From the NCBI GenBank assembly GCA_027382625.1, contig JAJKFJ010021523.1, forward strand, positions 62,001-126,000: DNA of 64,000 nt, given 5' to 3'. This document shows, one piece after another, positions 34,964-43,181 of this stretch. The notes beneath the pieces are model-generated. The model made no database searches and was not told the origin of the DNA. It saw only the letters and a program-made list of their open reading frames with translations. Both the position numbers and the translations under genes were made by a program. Source of the DNA: Tetmemena sp. SeJ-2015. Lineage: Eukaryota; Ciliophora; Spirotrichea; Sporadotrichida; Oxytrichidae. The first letter of the stretch is position 1; each line of letters starts with the position of its first letter.

Positions 34964-36619
34964 TTTGAGTATAACTCCCATCATCGAACACATCATAACG
35001 GTCAAGGCAATAGTGGAAAGAATTGCTATGATCTAATCTAGCTTTCTAAGCTTCTTGCGGTGATTTATCTTGAGGCAGAATAAGTCCTCGTAGTTCCACT
35101 TTTTGGATTTAATTGGAGCTATCTCAATCTTGGCTCCAAAGCTGCCTTAGCTACTCGTTTTTACTACTAGTTCACTCCTGACGATATCAGCAGGGCAGTT
35201 ATCCTCCAGCGAGAAACTTTCCTTGTCAATACTGTTCATTCTTCCTTCCATGGCTGACGTAGGTCCATCCCAAGGGAGATGCAAGGGCCTCTCTCTTTTC
35301 ATGGAGTGGAAATCTTATCCACCCTTGGTGTCTAAGATATCTCTCTGATTTGAGTCAAATCGTAGTAATCCGTCCCTCTCTTCTTTATTCCTCTCCTTTG
35401 CTTCTTTCCTTGCCTTCCTCTTCTTGTACTTAATTCTCTCAAGCTGCCTCTCTTTCTTATCTATTAGAAGCACTATGAATATCAGGAATATAGTCGCGCA
35501 ACTTATAGACAAGAAGAAGTAGCCGATGAAGGGGATCTCAAAAATAATTTGTGAGATATATATAAAGCATCTAGGTTGACATCGGCACTATTTGAGACAC
35601 CATCACGAGGAACATAATTTCAGTAAGCAGAATACGAAAAAATAAATCAACATTTTCTAATGATAAATAGTAGCGAGATAGTTGGCTCGTTCTCCTGCTC
35701 CCTTGGGCAAGAAATAGTAGAACGTGCTTGCAAGTCCAACTAAAGTTAAAAGAATACTAAGAAACAAGGAACGATAACACTGACAACTAGTGTATTACCC
35801 TTGCGCCTTATGTTGATTTGATAGTTGACGTGTTAGTAACTGCCCGTACTGAAGTCGTAGTTAATGATCCTGTAACTGCTGCCCACAATTCCCCACTCTA
35901 TGTTTTCTACTTTAAACGTGTCGTATATGTATAGAGGGTTATTTCTGAAGCTATTAAAAAGTAAAATTCGATTAAAAAGTAAGCTGATTAGAACCCTATT
36001 ATTTGGGTAAATCCAACTGCCAAAAGTCATGTTAATTATTTGTTCATCGTAGGGGTAGTCACTCACATCAAAAGTCACAAGAACTTTCAAATCCCCGAAT
36101 CGTGAAAAGTAAACTGTGCCGTCGCTGTTTACTCTTAAATCTGTGTATTGCTAGTTACTCAAATAACCCTCTCCCATGTCTTATTACAAGTAGGTGTCTG
36201 GAGTCCAAATTATATTTTGCACTTGAGGGTCTGACTTGAACCAAGTCTGATTTATTCCACCATATATAATATGTATGCTTAAATTTAAGATTCTTATGCA
36301 TATTTCGAAGCGTTCCAGGATAATCTCATATCGGTCCACCATTAACGAACAGAGGCCTTTAGTCTTACGAAACTTTCAGCCATTTACAATATAATGAATG
36401 ATTAAGTTCAGCAGTGTTGACTTCAGCTAAACCCATAATTTCGACCCTGAACTGTATCTACGTTTGAGTGCCGTTGTCCCTTGGCCAAGGAAGAGCTGCT
36501 GGATTATAGTCTTTCAGTAAATCGTCTAATAACTACTAGTCATAGTAAGCCGTCTAAATACTTGCGACAAGCAAGAGAAGTTCACACAGAACTAATTATG
36601 CCAAGATCTTTGCACGCAT
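34964..36619 (-). CDS. Pentameric ligand-gated ion channel, paralog 1
   Basis: Member of the Cys-loop/pentameric ligand-gated channel superfamily, acting as a transmitter- or ligand-gated pore in the plasma membrane; the ligand is unknown. ATG 36617-36619 starts a signal peptide (MRAKILAQLVLCELLLLVAS) before YYDQQLLDDLLKDYNP. The loop region reads VTFDVSDYPYDEQIINMTFGSW: the central Pro and the FGSW motif are present, but the two loop cysteines are replaced by Val and Ile. M1 contains LTLVGLASTFYYFLP. M2, after IES removal, is ERANYLATILLTEIMFLVMV then SQIVPMST, close to animal channels. M3 is FIGYFFLSISCATIFLIFIV, followed by a basic/acidic intracellular loop and M4 (AILSTIALTVMMCSMMGVIL). 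Stop TGA 34964-34966. Four IESs are placed. Confidence 0.9.
35535..35572 (-). other. IES between M2 and M3 of channel 1, pointer ATCT
   Basis: Repeats at 35535-35538 and 35569-35572. Removing 34 nt joins VPMST to QIPFIGYFFL. Paralog 2 reads straight through here (FPISTLIPFIGYFF), so this IES is unique to paralog 1. Confidence 0.85.
35631..35669 (-). other. IES inside M2 pore helix of channel 1, pointer AATA
   Basis: Repeats at 35631-35634 and 35666-35669. Removing 35 nt gives ANYLATILLTEIMF. Confidence 0.88.
35747..35760 (-). other. 11-nt IES in M1 of channel 1, pointer TAA
   Basis: Repeats TAA at 35747-35749 and 35758-35760. Removing 11 nt turns IVPCFL into IVPCFLTLVGLASTF and corrects the frame. 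Confidence 0.8.
35948..35985 (-). other. 33-nt frame-neutral IES in channel 1, pointer AAGCT
   Basis: Repeats AAGCT at 35948-35952 and 35981-35985. The insert keeps the frame open but adds 11 residues. Removal gives NNRVLISFRNNPLYIYD, aligned with NNRVLLNFRNNPLYIYD of paralog 2. Confidence 0.8.
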
Positions 36620-36727
36620 TAATAATTTTATATAAATATTTCCTTAAATTAAAGTCAATAAATTCACTTTTATTAGACACGCTTTATGTGAAATAGATTT
36701 TAAGATAGATTGTATATATCTTTAAAA

Positions 36728-38145
36728 ATGAATTCAGAAAACAGTAGTGACGATAGCCCTCAAAGGAATAAGAGAGAGGTTGATAGTCAAAATCTAAGTA
36801 GAGATAAGAATGAGAGGAAATCTGGAATTAAAAAGAAGAGCAAGAAGCAAAAGAAGAATGAAGTATATGATGGGGATAATGACCTAGATAGCTAAACTGC
36901 ATCTAGTCTCAGAAGTAGACTCATAAACGATTCTGATAGTAATTACCCAGTCAGAGAGTCTTTCTAAGGAGAGGTCAAGAAGAAACGCAAGAAGGATAAA
37001 AAGTCGAAGAAGAGTAGAGTAGATAAAGAAGAAGAGCTGAGTGACGAAGGATCCTACTTCCCTGATAACGCTTCAGACTCTGGCACTTCTGATTTTCTCA
37101 ACATACACTGGGTCAAGTGCTTCAGAGACATCTACTAGAGCTAAGTTAGTAAAGAGAAAAGGCTTGAATAGATTTTGCATTCATCTCAAACTCCTAATGC
37201 AGAAGAACTTTTGGCTCTTCAAAAGAAACCTGAAGATGACTGCATCAATGATTTGCACACATATCTTCTTCATATTGCTCTTGATGTTCTTCTAATGGTC
37301 TAGTGATCGTTTCTTAGCTAAAGAGGAAGTCAATCCTCCAATGGAACTTCTGCAGCCTCTTTAACGCTGTACTGGAGATGCTTCTTGCACTACTATTAAA
37401 TATGTTGTGTATTAAATTGAATAAGGAATAATATTCTTATTTTGTGATATAGGGTATTCAATCATAGGCGACCCAAACAAAGAAGAGGATTACGATTACA
37501 TAAATGAGATAATGGAGCACGTAGCAACAGACAACGTGCTAATTTTCAAGAAAGACATCAAAGCTTCTCACAATCGGAGAGCCGAAAGACTTTTACAAGT
37601 ATCTTGAAAATAACCCTAACATGACTTGGTACAGTGTAGTTTGGTGCACAACTGAATGGAAAGTTTCCGAGAATTATTCTATACCTTGCAAGTTCTCCTC
37701 AAGTCAAATGAATAGAGGGAACCAGAGTTAGCAGCTTATGTTTTATTCCCTCTTCTATAACTTTTCCATTTCTGATACTGTCTTCATGAAGTCAATTAAC
37801 GAGCTCTCTCCAGTCGACCCAAAGCTATTGCAAATTAAGAACTCTATAGATAATGGAATTATGAAATACCTCACTGAGAGAAATGGTTTGGATGCTTAAA
37901 ATTCTCCAAGGATTAAGCTATCTCACAGTAGCTATCCCAAAGGAGCAGATAGATTTGTCAAAAATAGTAATGTTGTCGCACAGATGGGTGCTTACTTTTT
38001 CATATTCAGTCCTTTGCTCTGCTTTTGTATTTTCCTAAATGAAATAATCAGAGAAAAAGAGCTAAAGCTGAGACAGGTAATCTTAAATCATTGATGAAAT
38101 TTTAGGGCCTTTAAGTTGTAGGAGTCGGCCACTCTGTATTTTGGA
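36728..38145 (+). CDS. ABCA half-transporter, N-terminal germline segment
   Basis: First part of an ABC-A family half transporter (one membrane domain plus one nucleotide-binding domain), probably a lipid mover. ATG 36728 starts a Ser/Lys-rich cytosolic N-terminus (SGIKKKSKKQKKNE; KKKRKKDKKSKKSR). The first membrane helix is FCIHLKLLMQKNFWLFKRNL then ICTHIFFILLLMFF. A large loop with Cys residues follows, and then the second helix (MGAYFFIFSPLLCFCIFLNE) and the family signature EIIREKELKLRQ|GLQVVGVGHSVFW. A 29-nt intron lies at 38077-38105 exactly at the bar. The coding piece ends at the pointer 38132-38145; what follows makes no sense in frame. A one-base frame change near 37563 is unexplained. 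The rest of the gene is on the opposite strand at 40193-38181. Confidence 0.9.
37070..37126 (+). other. IES in ABCA gene, pointer GCTTCAGA
   Basis: Repeats at 37070-37077 and 37119-37126. Removing 49 nt joins FPDNASE to TSTRAKLVKRKGLNRF, entering the membrane-domain frame. Confidence 0.8.
38132..38145 (+). other. 14-bp pointer, outgoing end of inverted junction
   Basis: CTCTGTATTTTGGA on the + strand. The same 14 bases occur on the - strand at 40193-40180. They are the last bases of the N-terminal ABCA segment. Confidence 0.92.
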
Positions 38146-38180
38146 ATTGAAATATAGATTGTTAAAGTTGAATAAAATTT

Positions 38181-40193
38181 TCAATTCTATTGTTTTCTGC
38201 CTGTTAGTTTCATAAATACCTCCTCAAGAGTGGTATGAGATATTCCTACATCTTGAACTAGCAGCTTTAGTTCATTTACATAGACATTCTCTCCATATAT
38301 ACCATATCCGTTATGCTCATAATTCTCTTCTGGCAGAGTTTGAATGAGCTAGAATATCATGGACATCTCACTCAGGCAGTTAACGGGAACAGTGAAGATT
38401 AGAGCCTCCACTCTAGTCTAGAAGTCTGTTAGATGGAGCAATTGTGTTCATAAGTTCTGTAACTCTCCTCTCGCTTCCTTCTCTGCAAACTATTGAAATC
38501 CTATAGCCATCCCCAAAAGCGTTTTTGAGATAAAGGGAAGTTCCCACACATTTTAGTTTGCCCTCATTGATTAGGGCGATCCTGTCTGAGAGCACATCTG
38601 CCTCCTCCATTGCGTGTGTTGTTAAAATGATAACCTTATTCCTCTTCAGTTTCTGAATGAGCTGCCAAACATCTTTCCTAGACATAGGATCCATTCCAGT
38701 AGTTGGTTCATCCATGAAGATAACTCTCGGATCTCCAATTGCAGCTATAGCAACTGATAACCTTCTCTTCATAAACATGAAGTTAGATCAAAACTTAAAA
38801 AGTTCTATTTAGATCTTTTACCTCCTGAGAAAGAAGATACTCTGGCATTGGAGACATCATTCAGTCCAACGTCTTCTAGTAATTCCTAGGAAGTCTTATC
38901 TATATCTTCTTTGGGTATGCCTTTTATTTGAGAGAACATTCTCATGTGCTCATTAAAACTTACAACCTTATATATAATTAGCAGTAAGTTCACCCCATAA
39001 GATATCGAATTGAGGCACCACTCCAATCAGTTACCTAATCTCATCTTGGTTGGTGGATATATCTAATCCGCAAATAAATGCTTGACCCTTAGTAGGCGCA
39101 AGTACTCCAGTCATAATGTTGAATAATGTAGACTTTCCAGCTCCATTATGCCCTAGCAAGCATAGGAGTTCTCTGTCAGGTACTTCCAAGTAAATTCCTC
39201 TCACTGCTTTAACTTACTTGGAGGACCTTTTGAAGTACGTTTTCTTGTCAAAATACTTTTTAATTCCAACTATTCTGAGTCCTTCACATGTCACTCCCCC
39301 TCTAATGAAATAAGTTTAAATGTTATTAAGAACTTTCTTCTTTTCCTTTTTGACAGAATCCCTCTTGAATTGCGTTGTCTAACCTAAGTCTTCTTTAGTG
39401 AGCTTTCTTTTCTTCTTCCTTACGCCTTACTATTAATCGGTTTCTGGAATGGAATTGGAGGAGAAGAGAGATAGCCAGTACTTTTTGGTGAAGAGGAAAT
39501 AATAGGGATGGGCAACTCCTCTGTTGGAAGCCATTACGTGGTCGAAATACCACGCCAAAAGACCGTAGATGCAGCAGTTTAAAATGAGTACTAGATACAT
39601 GGATCTTGCACTGGGCATAGTATAGCCCATTCCATCTCCAAACTCCCCATGCACTTCCTCTCCAAACATCTCCCAAGTGTATTGCTTCCCAGCTAGCCAC
39701 ACTAAGTAAGAAGGTTCCAAGTGGTAGGAGGCTACCTTAGAAATTTAATGTTAAAGTATATATAAACATAAAATTGCACCAAAGCAGATGGAATAAGGAA
39801 AAGCAGGCAGGAGGTAGAAATAATTATTTAAAACAATCTCTCGTTGAAAAAAATTATGATTAAGATTGTAAAAATTTTTGCTTAACCACAAATAATTAAA
39901 CGAGTACTATGAAGTAGATATTATGATGTAATAAATATTTTACAGAATAGGCTTGCTGCTAGGTGGAGATAAGTGTAGATAGGAAGAAGGCCATCATATT
40001 CAAAGCAACAGAGAAGGTAAAGAAAAGTAAAAACAGCATGCTAGAAAAGATTAGGAAATCATTCGTTGCTTACAAGAAGGGAGTATTTAGAAATAGATCC
40101 AACTAGCAGATTAAGCCAAGGATACATAGTAGTAAAGAGTTTACAGCTGAGAAGATAGTTGCAATCGCAAACCAACTTATCCAAAATACAGAG
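38181..40193 (-). CDS. ABCA half-transporter, C-terminal germline segment (inverted)
   Basis: Continues the + strand piece in reversed orientation. Read from 40193: [20 protein letters not shown], then [20 protein letters not shown] and TLISTQQQAYS, a 37-nt intron (39907-39943), [17 protein letters not shown], the membrane helix [19 protein letters not shown], a basic linker, and the nucleotide-binding domain. That domain has Walker [10 protein letters not shown], a Q-loop in [16 protein letters not shown], signature [15 protein letters not shown] (after removing an IES), Walker [14 protein letters not shown], switch His in [12 protein letters not shown], and the ABCA-type C-terminal domain ending [12 protein letters not shown]. 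Stop TGA 38181-38183. Together the two pieces give one complete half-transporter of roughly 800-850 residues. Only about 35 bp lie between this stop and the pointer of the first piece. Confidence 0.93.
38772..38820 (-). other. IES inside the ABC signature motif, pointer TA
   Basis: TA at 38772-38773 and 38819-38820. Removing 47 nt joins SSFSGG to [13 protein letters not shown]. It is the shortest placed pointer (2 bp). Confidence 0.8.
38952..38980 (-). other. IES in ABCA NBD, pointer ATTA
   Basis: Repeats at 38952-38955 and 38977-38980. Removing 25 nt joins ILWGELTAN to [11 protein letters not shown], as expected after the Q-loop. Confidence 0.85.
39741..39775 (-). other. IES in ABCA membrane domain, pointer AAATT
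   Basis: Repeats at 39741-39745 and 39771-39775. Removing 30 nt joins SICFGAI to [12 protein letters not shown]. Confidence 0.75.
39818..39898 (-). other. 72-nt IES, 9-bp pointer AAATAATTA
   Basis: Repeats at 39818-39826 and 39890-39898. Together with removal of the adjacent intron 39907-39943 it gives [20 protein letters not shown]. Its length is a multiple of three. Confidence 0.78.
40180..40193 (-). other. 14-bp pointer, incoming end of inverted junction
   Basis: Reads TCCAAAATACAGAG on +, the reverse complement of 38132-38145. Joining the two copies gives [15 protein letters not shown], the expected ABCA helix. Confidence 0.92.
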
Positions 40194-40300
40194 GGTAATA
40201 GATTATCTTGGGCAAATCATTTGGTCAAAATGCAAAGAAAGTTTAATAAGTATTAGAAATTCATAAAATTGTCTTGTACTATTAATTTTAAAAATAGAAA

Positions 40301-40926
40301 ATGAATATCTCTAACACAACTCTTGGCCATCAAGGTCTGGCATATCTTTCTATGCTTATGATTGTCCTCGAGTATGAAGTCATCTCGTAAGTAAAGCCAT
40401 GAATCAATTAGCGAACTCATAAAGCAATGGTCTTAATTATTGCATAGAATGTCTCAAGTGTTCAAGAGAGCTAAAGTGTTTAGCAAAGAATTCATGGCTA
40501 AGTTTGACGATATTCATGAGAGAGAAGTTGGAGGCAAAGCTCCTGCTAATGGCTACCCAGACACTGGAAGCGGAAGATACTCTAATGAGCTTTCCTATGG
40601 CGACTGGTTCTCTTTCAATAACTCTTAATTATTATATTTAACTTCCAAAGAGTCCAATACAACTTCCTAGAGCAAATCACTCCCATGCTTGATGATTAAA
40701 TTTGCTTTGTTTTTATAAGCTAGTCTGGATATTCATCAGCAGCTTCTACCAGCCACTAGCTGCTGCAATCCTAGGCTTCGGATATTTCTTCGGAAGAATT
40801 TTCTACTCAATCGGCTACTGTAAATCTCCCAAGCACAGACTAGTGGGAGCCCTCATTTGCGACGTTGCATACCTTGGCGGTTTCATTTTATCAATTGTGA
40901 CCATTGGCAAATGGCAGCAATATTGA
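40301..40926 (+). CDS. MAPEG family protein (microsomal glutathione S-transferase-like)
   Basis: Small integral membrane enzyme of the MAPEG family, expected to act in glutathione-dependent detoxification or eicosanoid-type chemistry; the specific substrate is unknown. ATG 40301 gives MNISNTTLGHQGLAYLSMLM as first helix. A 61-nt intron (40387-40447) follows codon EVIS. The family core FQRVQYNFLEQITPML (compare RAQxNxxExxP) appears only after IES removal, followed by helices WIFISSFYQPLAAAILGFGY and FFGRIFYSIGYCK (R-x3-Y-x2-GY), then a last helix ending KWQQY with TGA 40924-40926. About 170 residues after editing, near the usual family size. It starts 108 bp from the ABCA inverted segment, divergently. 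Confidence 0.88.
40619..40643 (+). other. IES in MAPEG gene, pointer TAACT
   Basis: Repeats at 40619-40623 and 40639-40643. Removing 20 nt joins DWFSFNN to FQRVQYNFLEQ. Confidence 0.85.
40687..40721 (+). other. IES in MAPEG gene, pointer GCT
   Basis: Repeats GCT at 40687-40689 and 40719-40721. Removing 32 nt joins EQITPML to VWIFISSFYQ. Confidence 0.8.
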
Positions 40927-41141: not shown

Positions 41142-43181
41142 TCACTTTAAAATGATTATGAGCATGGTTAACATCATTATATTCATCAAAGCTGATGCAA
41201 CAAAAGCTATCTGCACATCAAGCTTCCTCAGCTTTTTCAAGGTATCGATATGGAGGCAAAACAAATCTTAGAAGTCCCATCTCTTCTTTGTGAAGATAGA
41301 TGAATTCTCCTTTAGAGTTTGATCTTAAAGAGTTTGGACTTCTTTGAGCTTTTAATCTGAATAGTTTCCTTCTTCCTTTACTAGTTGCTACTAATTCTCA
41401 TGGTAAAAGAAATAAAAAATAATTCAATTTCATATTTTACAGATGGTTGAATTCTTCTACAACCATGCTAATATTCTCATTTATTGCTCCAATGTTATTT
41501 CTTAAGTTAGCTTGTGAATGAGTGATCGAACCTGCGAAAGACTGATGAATAGAAGTCATATTGGATCCATTTGCACTCAAAAGACTGCCAGATTTCCTCT
41601 AAACCTTGTTTTGTTTACTCTCTGTTAAGGATTCTTAACTCTAGTATAAGGGTCTGTTGCTGTAATATTCCTTAGGTTTGTTTAGGTATTGATTCTGCTT
41701 AAACTTAGAGGGCTCTCCAACTCTCTGGACAGTTATTGATGCATTAGGTTTAAATAAGTAAGTATAAGTTGTAAGTTAGGATTATGAGCTTGTATTGAGG
41801 AGACACCTAAGATTCATCTTTTTATTGTTTCTATTCTTCTATTCTTATGAACTGTTGATCCTTTGCTTATTGTTATTGTAATTGGTGTTGTTCCCTGGCC
41901 ATCTCCTTCTGCTGTTTGACTGCTTTCCTCTTTTTGTACTTGATTCTTTCGAGTTGCGCTCTTTCTTGTCGATGAGCATCACTATGAAGATCATAAAGAT
42001 TGTGGCGCAACTTGTTGCCAAGAAAAAGTAACCGATGAATGGAATTAACGTGGAAATGGGGAAGATCTGAGATATCATTACTAGAAACATTATCTCAGTC
42101 AGCAAAATCTAATACTAAGATATAAACAACAATAAATCATAGCGAGGTAGTTAGCTCGCTCACCCTAACCCTTAGGCAAGAAATAGTAGAAAGTGCTAGA
42201 AAGACCAACAATATAACCTAAATTGTTTAAATTTAATAAAGCAAGGAATGATGACACTGATCACAAAAGTGTTGCCCCTTCGCTTGATATAGATCTGATA
42301 ATTAAGGTGTTGAAAATCGCCAGTACTGAATTGATAGTTGATGATCTGGTATGAGCTGCCACTTATACTCCACTCTATATTCTCCACCTTGAAGGTATCG
42401 TAGATGTACAAAGGATTGTTCCTGAAATTAATAATATCTTTAATTCAAAAGGACTCTGTTGTTAGGATAGACCCAACTCCCGAAGGTCAAGTTGATGGTC
42501 TGCACATCGTATGGGTACTCTCCCATATCGAACGTTACTAGTACCTTCAGATCTCCGAATCTCGTGAAGTAGACTGTCCGTCGCTATTTACTCGGATATC
42601 AGTAAATTTTTAGTTGCTGAGGTATCCCTCCCCAATGTCTTGTTGAAGGTATGTATCTGGGGTCCAGATGATATTTTGAACTTAGGGATCTGATTTGAAC
42701 CAGGTCTAGTTTATTCCTCCGTACTTAAACATAAAGCATCAAATGACAAAAAGGTTTTAAGTATAAATGGTTTAGAAGGATCCCAAGAAAGTCTCATATC
42801 TGACCACCATTGTCTTATCGAAATTTATGGAGGCCATAATTTTATGCTCTCTATTAAAAACTAAGGTTTTACAAACAATAATTTTGATTTCGAAGAAAAA
42901 AATATTTAGATTATATTCCCCTTTGAAGCTTTTAATCTCACATAACTCTACTCTTGATTTACCTCTGCTATACTCATGATCTCTATTCTGAAGTCTATCT
43001 TAGTTTGTACTCCTCCGTCCTTTGGATATGGCAGAGCGGCTGTGTTGTAACCTTAAAGCAGGTCGTTGATTAGTTGTTGGTCGTAATAGGTGCCACAAGA
43101 AACTAATGATCAGCTAAGAAGGATCACAGCACAAACCAGTATAAGTTTAACAATTCTTGACGATTTCAGATCCGCTGCCAT
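41142..43181 (-). CDS. Pentameric ligand-gated ion channel, paralog 2
   Basis: Close paralog of the gene at 34964-36619. ATG 43179-43181 begins MAADLKSSRIVKLILVCAVI, but the frame meets a TGA at 43110-43112 in the signal-peptide region before CGTYYDQQLINDLLQ. The ligand-binding region has VTFDMGEYPYDVQTINLTF then GSWVYPNNRVLLNFRNNP; again the loop cysteines are Val and Ile. After IES removal M1 is IIPCFIVGLSSTFYYFLPKG, M2 is ERANYLAMILLTEIMFLVMI, and M3 is FIGYFFLATSCATIFMIFIV. M4 is IAFVASALMNIMMLTMLIII with TGA 41142-41144. The intracellular loop differs strongly from paralog 1. Three IESs are placed, all at positions shared with paralog 1. Confidence 0.88.
42105..42138 (-). other. IES inside M2 of channel 2, pointer AAATC
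   Basis: Repeats at 42105-42109 and 42134-42138. Removing 29 nt gives NYLAMILLTEIMF, the same place as 35631-35669 in paralog 1. Confidence 0.85.
42210..42238 (-). other. IES in M1 of channel 2, pointer AATA
   Basis: Repeats at 42210-42213 and 42235-42238. Removing 25 nt gives VIIPCFIVGLSSTFYYF, matching the site at 35747-35760. Confidence 0.8.
42426..42445 (-). other. 16-nt IES in channel 2, pointer AATT
   Basis: Repeats at 42426-42429 and 42442-42445. Removing 16 nt gives NNRVLLNFRNNPLYIYD, matching 35948-35985 in paralog 1. Confidence 0.82.

Follow-up and report, generated by a model that had tools for sequence, protein, structure and literature searches.

Here we describe an ABCA transporter gene that lies in a 64,000-bp stretch of DNA from Tetmemena sp. 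SeJ-2015 (hereafter the window; positions 62001-126000 of contig C2601, within an assembly of 146.2 Mb and 5213 contigs) and is laid out in two parts that read on opposite strands. The same 14-bp sequence, CTCTGTATTTTGGA, closes the first part at 38132-38145 on the + strand and, in opposite orientation, opens the second at 40180-40193 on the - strand, in agreement to the base with the 14-mer and its reverse complement that a first-pass annotation of the window had reported. In the scheme of that annotation, this repeat is a pointer, i.e., a short sequence at which germline segments are joined and of which one copy is kept.

An ABCA gene in two opposed parts with a 14-bp pointer

Translations were made with TAA and TAG as glutamine, both of which occur inside the open frames of the window gene and of other genes of the assembly. 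Read in this way, the + strand runs from LRQ across a 29-bp GT-AG intron into GLQVVGVGHSVFW as far as 38144, the - strand picks up at 40192, and a single retained pointer copy keeps the two readings in frame. Homologues are colinear over this join, with protein P0003 reading REKELRLRQGLQVVGVGHSVYWASWTL unbroken across it and protein P0012 reading REKELKLRQGLQVVGVGHSVYWLSWF. The latter (1005 residues, eukprot:403368176, probably a GenBank identifier of Oxytricha trifallax) ranked top among the best 120 of 1731 matches, with 65% identity over 86% of the joined-protein query. Once four internal eliminated sequences (IESs) and two introns had been cut out and the parts united at one pointer copy, the edited gene matched P0012 residues 301-566 in one frame across the junction at 69% identity, and a further alignment covered residues 567-986 at 67% identity. 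The first-pass annotation had read the product of a one-copy join as a helix expected in ABCA proteins; the product is in frame and is continuous in both P0012 and P0003. When the joined membrane part was used as query, 11 proteins were returned, of which eight are on contigs of 1.2-3.4 kb and three are from Coffea.

The domain content of the two parts is complementary. P0012 carries both an ABC2_membrane_3 and an ABC_tran domain in one protein; among the window pieces, Pfam recognised ABC_tran on a portion of the second part (52.3 bits, cut-off 25), and the first part alone gave ABC2_membrane_3 at 22.2 bits, under the cut-off of 31.6. Piecewise, the first part is 66-92% identical to P0012 from 37064 onward (tblastn), and its ATG at 36728 was read by eye. 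The GHNGAGKST and SFSGG motifs of the ATP-binding domain are unbroken, and the window gene is predicted to encode a half-size ABCA transporter.

The pointer is specific to this locus, with two copies of CTCTGTATTTTGGA in the whole 146.2-Mb assembly, both at the junction described here, and five matches (three forward, two reverse) for its reversed control pattern. Neither a second copy of the window gene nor a somatic version of it was found in the assembly. The match is exactly 14 bp, as the flanking base is mismatched at either side when the copies are extended in register. An inverted 14-mer by itself is not rare in the AT-rich window, in which ten position pairs of inverted exact 14-mers lie within 5 kb (four-base words only); it is its position that is the unlikely feature. 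We compared the longest word shared by the two 120-bp stretches at the junction (120 x 120 bp) with 2000 Markov shuffles per pair, and a word of at least 14 bp was shared in 2 of the 2000 shuffled pairs, a figure counted before the further demand of an in-frame protein join at the repeat.

Besides the inverted junction, the window gene is interrupted by four deletion-type IESs (Table 1), each of which, when cut out with one repeat kept, gave an ungapped local alignment to P0012. GT-AG introns were rejected for these four interruptions because no choice of GT-AG ends, as judged by eye, restores the homologue residues. Their pointers of 2, 3, 4, and 5 bp appear to fit a germline locus, by comparison with P0012, and over the five junctions of the window gene the scrambled pointer (14 bp) is longer than the simple ones, as the first-pass annotation had held; its range of 2-10 bp for simple IESs is compatible with the 2-5 bp found in this gene. 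The inverted part ends its coding sequence with TGA at 38183-38181, next to the spacer between the two parts. GC content is 15.8% over 38146-38183 and 22% over 40194-40310, as against 36-40% in the tested coding stretches, and it is close to the spacer that we expect the gene to end on its somatic 3' side.

Table 1. Features of the ABCA gene, in window positions
Feature	Positions	Strand	Remarks
First part, ATG to junction	36728..38145	+	N-terminal region, first membrane helix, large loop, start of next membrane segment
Deletion-type IES, TAT repeats (37394-37396, 37448-37450)	37394..37450	+	removal gives CTTIGYSIIGD as in P0012
GT-AG intron (or IES), 29 bp	38077..38105	+	between LRQ and GLQVVG
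Pointer copy 1, CTCTGTATTTTGGA	38132..38145	+	end of first part
AT-rich spacer between the parts, 35 bp	38146..38180		
Second, inverted part	38181..40193	-	rest of membrane domain, ATP-binding domain, C-terminus; tblastn with P0012 and P0007
Pointer copy 2	40180..40193	-	start of second part
GT-AG intron, 33 bp	40041..40073	-	extra residues relative to homologues
AT-rich stretch, 21.6% GC	39830..39945	-	~30-48 homologue residues not recognisable; possible IES plus missing segment
Deletion-type IES, AATTT repeats (39775-39771, 39745-39741)	39741..39775	-	removal gives AISKVA (AIQKIA in homologue)
Deletion-type IES, TAAT repeats	38952..38980	-	removal gives LTANEHM as in P0012
Deletion-type IES, TA repeats	38772..38820	-	removal gives FSGGMKRR as in P0012

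Inverted and colinear relatives in the same assembly

A search of the assembly with P0012 gave 50 matches, and 46 of 257 candidates were scored, so the count of ABCA genes is a lower bound. Layouts were read against a Stentor coeruleus protein of 1726 residues (P0126) as ruler, and sister loci were aligned with 130 collected proteins. Matches on C4026, C2694, C2651, C367, and C3683 and two other matches on C3550 were left out of the layout count, and those on C3167, C1352, C948, C3727, C3421, C1762, C3464, and C3096 out of the counts. The last eight contigs match at low identity over stretches that lack TAA and TAG, and look bacterial; long open frames without TAA or TAG on C3464, C948, C1352, and others have the look of bacterial contamination of a ciliate assembly.

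On several contigs, ATP-binding domains were found a few kb apart and facing opposite ways. In this sister layout, the first two thirds of the gene, up to where the second membrane domain begins, lie on one strand and the rest on the other, with the C-terminal end of the inverted part towards the junction. At least eight further ABCA loci are inverted in this manner with an inverted repeat of 8-14 bp at the in-frame protein join, which together with the window brings the inverted total to at least nine loci and at least six distinct genes. The pointers are CCTTATTTATGCAT at C3550 (L047; 14 bp), ACGCTTTTGACAT at C1942 (L058; 13 bp), and AATTATTCCTT at the middle of three genes on C3441 (L060; 11 bp), each the longest shared word of the scanned stretches; the 13-mer of C1942 again at C4237 and C287 (L061, L062); TATTCCTTGT (10 bp) at both C4815 (L059) and the third C3441 gene (L064); and ATTCCTTG at the first C3441 gene (L063 with L065), an exact repeat of 8 bp inside a 13-of-14 match that was picked out by eye.

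Several of these loci are close relatives. Pairwise identity among the three C3441 genes is 77-82% where aligned, C4815 is 95% identical to the third of them, and C1942, C4237, and C287 are 89-99% identical over their aligned parts. In the last trio, the pointer and the next 65 bases of the inverted half are identical but for one base; beyond the other edge of the pointer, C4237 diverges strongly, and in the first half C287 differs at 2 of the 78 bases preceding the pointer and at 4 of the 10 that follow it. Such a change of conservation at the pointer edge is what would be expected of a segment boundary.

The shuffle test covered six loci, namely the window, C1942, C3550, C4815, and the middle and third genes of C3441. 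Beyond the window, the observed length was reached in 3 of 2000 shuffles for the 13 bp of C1942 and in none of 2000 for the 14 bp of C3550, and in the wrong-strand comparison the longest shared word was 7-8 at all six loci. The same assembly also holds ABCA loci that are colinear over the equivalent site (C2083, C3080, and C3413). At C2083, an insertion of ~380 bp lies near the site with a one-base frame break nearby (by eye), and this insertion is a possible ordinary IES bounded by an AG repeat.

Junctions of the inverted genes fall close together in the protein. Distances were counted by eye on the translations from the tryptophan of a YW/FW motif in a membrane domain. In the window gene the pointer overlaps this motif, in the three C3441 genes and C4815 it is found ~12 residues past the tryptophan, and in C1942, its copies, and C3550 it is ~21-23 residues past it. 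We give even odds to the proposal that the germline ABCA family has a shared or recurrent inversion site, no more than ~25 residues after YW/FW, with differing pointers in three position clusters. The window gene is half-size and the other inverted ABCA genes are full-size; a common origin of the inversions is therefore not obvious, and a hotspot is as likely as common origin. If the proposal is true, the family may still display stages by which a simple IES turned into an inverted junction, whether the site was inherited while its pointer migrated or is a hotspot.

Strand switching also occurs outside the ABCA family. Of 24 matches to family-B DNA polymerase in the assembly, one gene (C4161:12239-16589) is divided between the strands, one of which matches positions 3-171 of the profile and the opposite one positions 155-239, and the same split pieces recur in mirror image at C1943:138675-142951. 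The polymerase genes on C1785, C2982, C3228, C4405, C3127, and C3894 are in order on a single strand, and fragments on C5004, C3955, C2499, and C3698 were uninformative. The gene for the alpha polymerase is a known scrambled gene of hypotrichs (by a reference title in PMC10901763), and the split gene is possibly this one.

Probable scrambling by inversion and the alternatives

Because of the colinear homologues, the IESs, the inverted sister genes with other pointers, the colinear controls, and the split polymerase gene, we consider it very probable that the window locus is a genuine case of a scrambled gene in the germline (micronuclear) DNA of a hypotrich-like spirotrich and that the gene requires a programmed inversion; this upholds the proposal of the first-pass annotation, with the flip itself being deduced. 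As the somatic nucleus develops, all four deletion-type IESs would be excised, and the second part would be flipped relative to the first and joined to it so that a single pointer copy is retained. The flip may be guided, as in published models, by RNA copied from the old somatic genome.

Several points weigh against this reading. We infer the flip and its guiding from germline contigs and homologues only, and the window locus sits on one contig only. Among 65 actin matches in the assembly, several of them incomplete, no piece was found on the opposite strand, and scrambling is therefore not universal in this genome. Judged by length, the shortest of the sister pointers are weak: in a wider scan, the 10-bp pointer of C4815 is tied with another 10-mer and that of the third C3441 gene is beaten by three 11-mers (which do not suit the protein join), shuffles reached these lengths in 173 and 219 of 2000 cases, respectively, the 11 bp of the middle C3441 gene was reached in 44 of 2000, and the 8-bp repeat of the first C3441 gene was not recovered as longest shared word. 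By length the two 10-bp pointers are not significant, and their support is their position; nor does length alone prove the 11-bp one. Within the window gene, the stretch at 39830-39945 is unrecognised in mid membrane domain, and the frame is off by about one base at four places (37094, in a T run; 37562, in an A run; near 39870; and near 38405). Nothing convincing for the lost ~30-48 residues turned up in the window or in two adjoining 10-kb stretches, and a genome search for them came back empty, an answer that proves little; the stretch may conceal one further displaced segment.

These same defects, four one-base frame breaks and one unrecognisable segment, would also suit a germline inversion that is real and useless, made by recombination at the repeat in a decaying pseudogene and never repaired in the soma, and recombination at an inverted repeat leaves an identical footprint. 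Five actin matches in the same assembly are open in one frame over ~1.1 kb with no break and no TGA, so decay of the window gene is a possibility to be counted with, although the neighbouring receptor gene has a similar one-base break (by eye). Overall, however, we judge a pseudogene very unlikely, given 65% identity to P0012 over 86% of the query, the intact GHNGAGKST and SFSGG motifs, and the many useless inversions that would be required to account for the many sister genes built alike.

Artefact is the next explanation to be weighed, namely that the germline is colinear and that an assembler, or a chimeric amplification, inverted a 2-kb segment at the 14-bp repeat. The small frame breaks suggest that the sequence is perhaps imperfect, and the locus is represented by a single contig. 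A repeat of 14 bp is a short basis for an assembler join, however, and the equal layout recurs at eight other loci with different pointers, including three contigs that are 89-99% identical and two loci that are 95% identical, while colinear relatives are present in the same assembly; we regard an artefact as highly improbable. That the two parts are separate opposite-strand genes, each half a transporter, is suggested by the open frames in both and has almost nothing else to commend it, since homologues hold both halves in one protein, the first part enters the 14-bp repeat in mid membrane segment and the second starts at the same repeat within that segment, and the examined sister loci likewise show complementary halves; we rejected it.

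Known scrambled genes and other features of the assembly

A programmed inversion, with deletion of IESs and pointer joining, would place the window gene in a familiar process. As published, this process deletes IESs, inverts or translocates segments, and joins them at pointers, which are longer where the junction is scrambled (PMC9797194, PMC2394655), and these sources agree with the first-pass annotation that spirotrich scrambled genes with inverted segments are known, as well as on pointer length. In Oxytricha, Tetmemena, and Euplotes woodruffi, programmed inversion occurs at pointers and scrambled genes have more paralogues (PMC9797194); the window gene resembles the scrambled genes of these species in its inversion at pointers and its longer scrambled pointer. 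A close precedent is actin I of Stylonychia lemnae, in which segments 1 and 2 are inverted and joined to segment 3 at a 2-3 pointer of 19 bp, next to deletion-type IESs whose pointers are shorter. In Oxytricha trifallax, the corresponding 2-3 pointer of actin I measures 14 bp (PMC2394655). Actin I of these two species has several scrambled junctions, whereas the window gene has one large inversion of its whole second half. In O. trifallax, segment 2 of actin I is reportedly inverted.

Scrambling is put at 13.6% of genes or chromosomes in Tetmemena and 7.3% in E. woodruffi, and at 29% of chromosomes in O. trifallax (PMC9797194, PMC10901763). Across Strombidium cf. sulcatum, Halteria, Euplotes vannus, and Oxytricha, the scrambled chromosomes explained by inversion alone make up 21-69% of the total, varying with the species (PMC10901763). 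The latter figures are genome-wide statistics, whereas the present case concerns one gene family. For another family of ABC transporters, ABCB, tandem germline genes of Uroleptopsis citrina and Oxytricha are described with pointer-bounded IESs and no scrambling (PMC10547551), in contrast to the inverted ABCA genes here. The main text of PMC9797194 has no match for "ABC transporter", a family-wide recurrent inversion site was not met with in that paper, and our literature search met no description of an ABCA inversion, which may well be annotated in the Oxytricha germline database.

Scrambled genes are well known, and taken by itself the window gene exemplifies this known process in an ordinary way; what is new is the recurrence within one family inside ~25 residues. 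The family bears on the question of how ciliate genes came to be scrambled. A single genome contains members inverted at neighbouring sites, near-identical copies, and colinear members, and with such a range it becomes testable in what order a simple IES, an inversion, and a pointer shift arose.

Somatic chromosome ends seem rare in the assembly. The telomere-type repeat C4A4 had 21 matches on three contigs only (C204, C2542, and C2828), 18 of them at C2828:3860-4156; reversing the pattern as a control gives this repeat again, merely shifted in phase. A codon-usage scan for further genes was too weak for use.

The ABCA locus is flanked by genes resembling receptors of the Cys-loop ion channel type, at 35538-36731 and 41398-42159, both on the - strand. 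The former has a Neur_chan_LBD match together with the one-base frame break mentioned above and, by eye, a short insertion between TATT repeats near 35669-35631; the latter has no Pfam match and was assigned by eye from its membrane part. Between the ABCA gene and this second receptor gene, a small gene on the + strand (40306-40926) matches MAPEG (PF01124, 30 bits) and is seemingly broken by short insertions.

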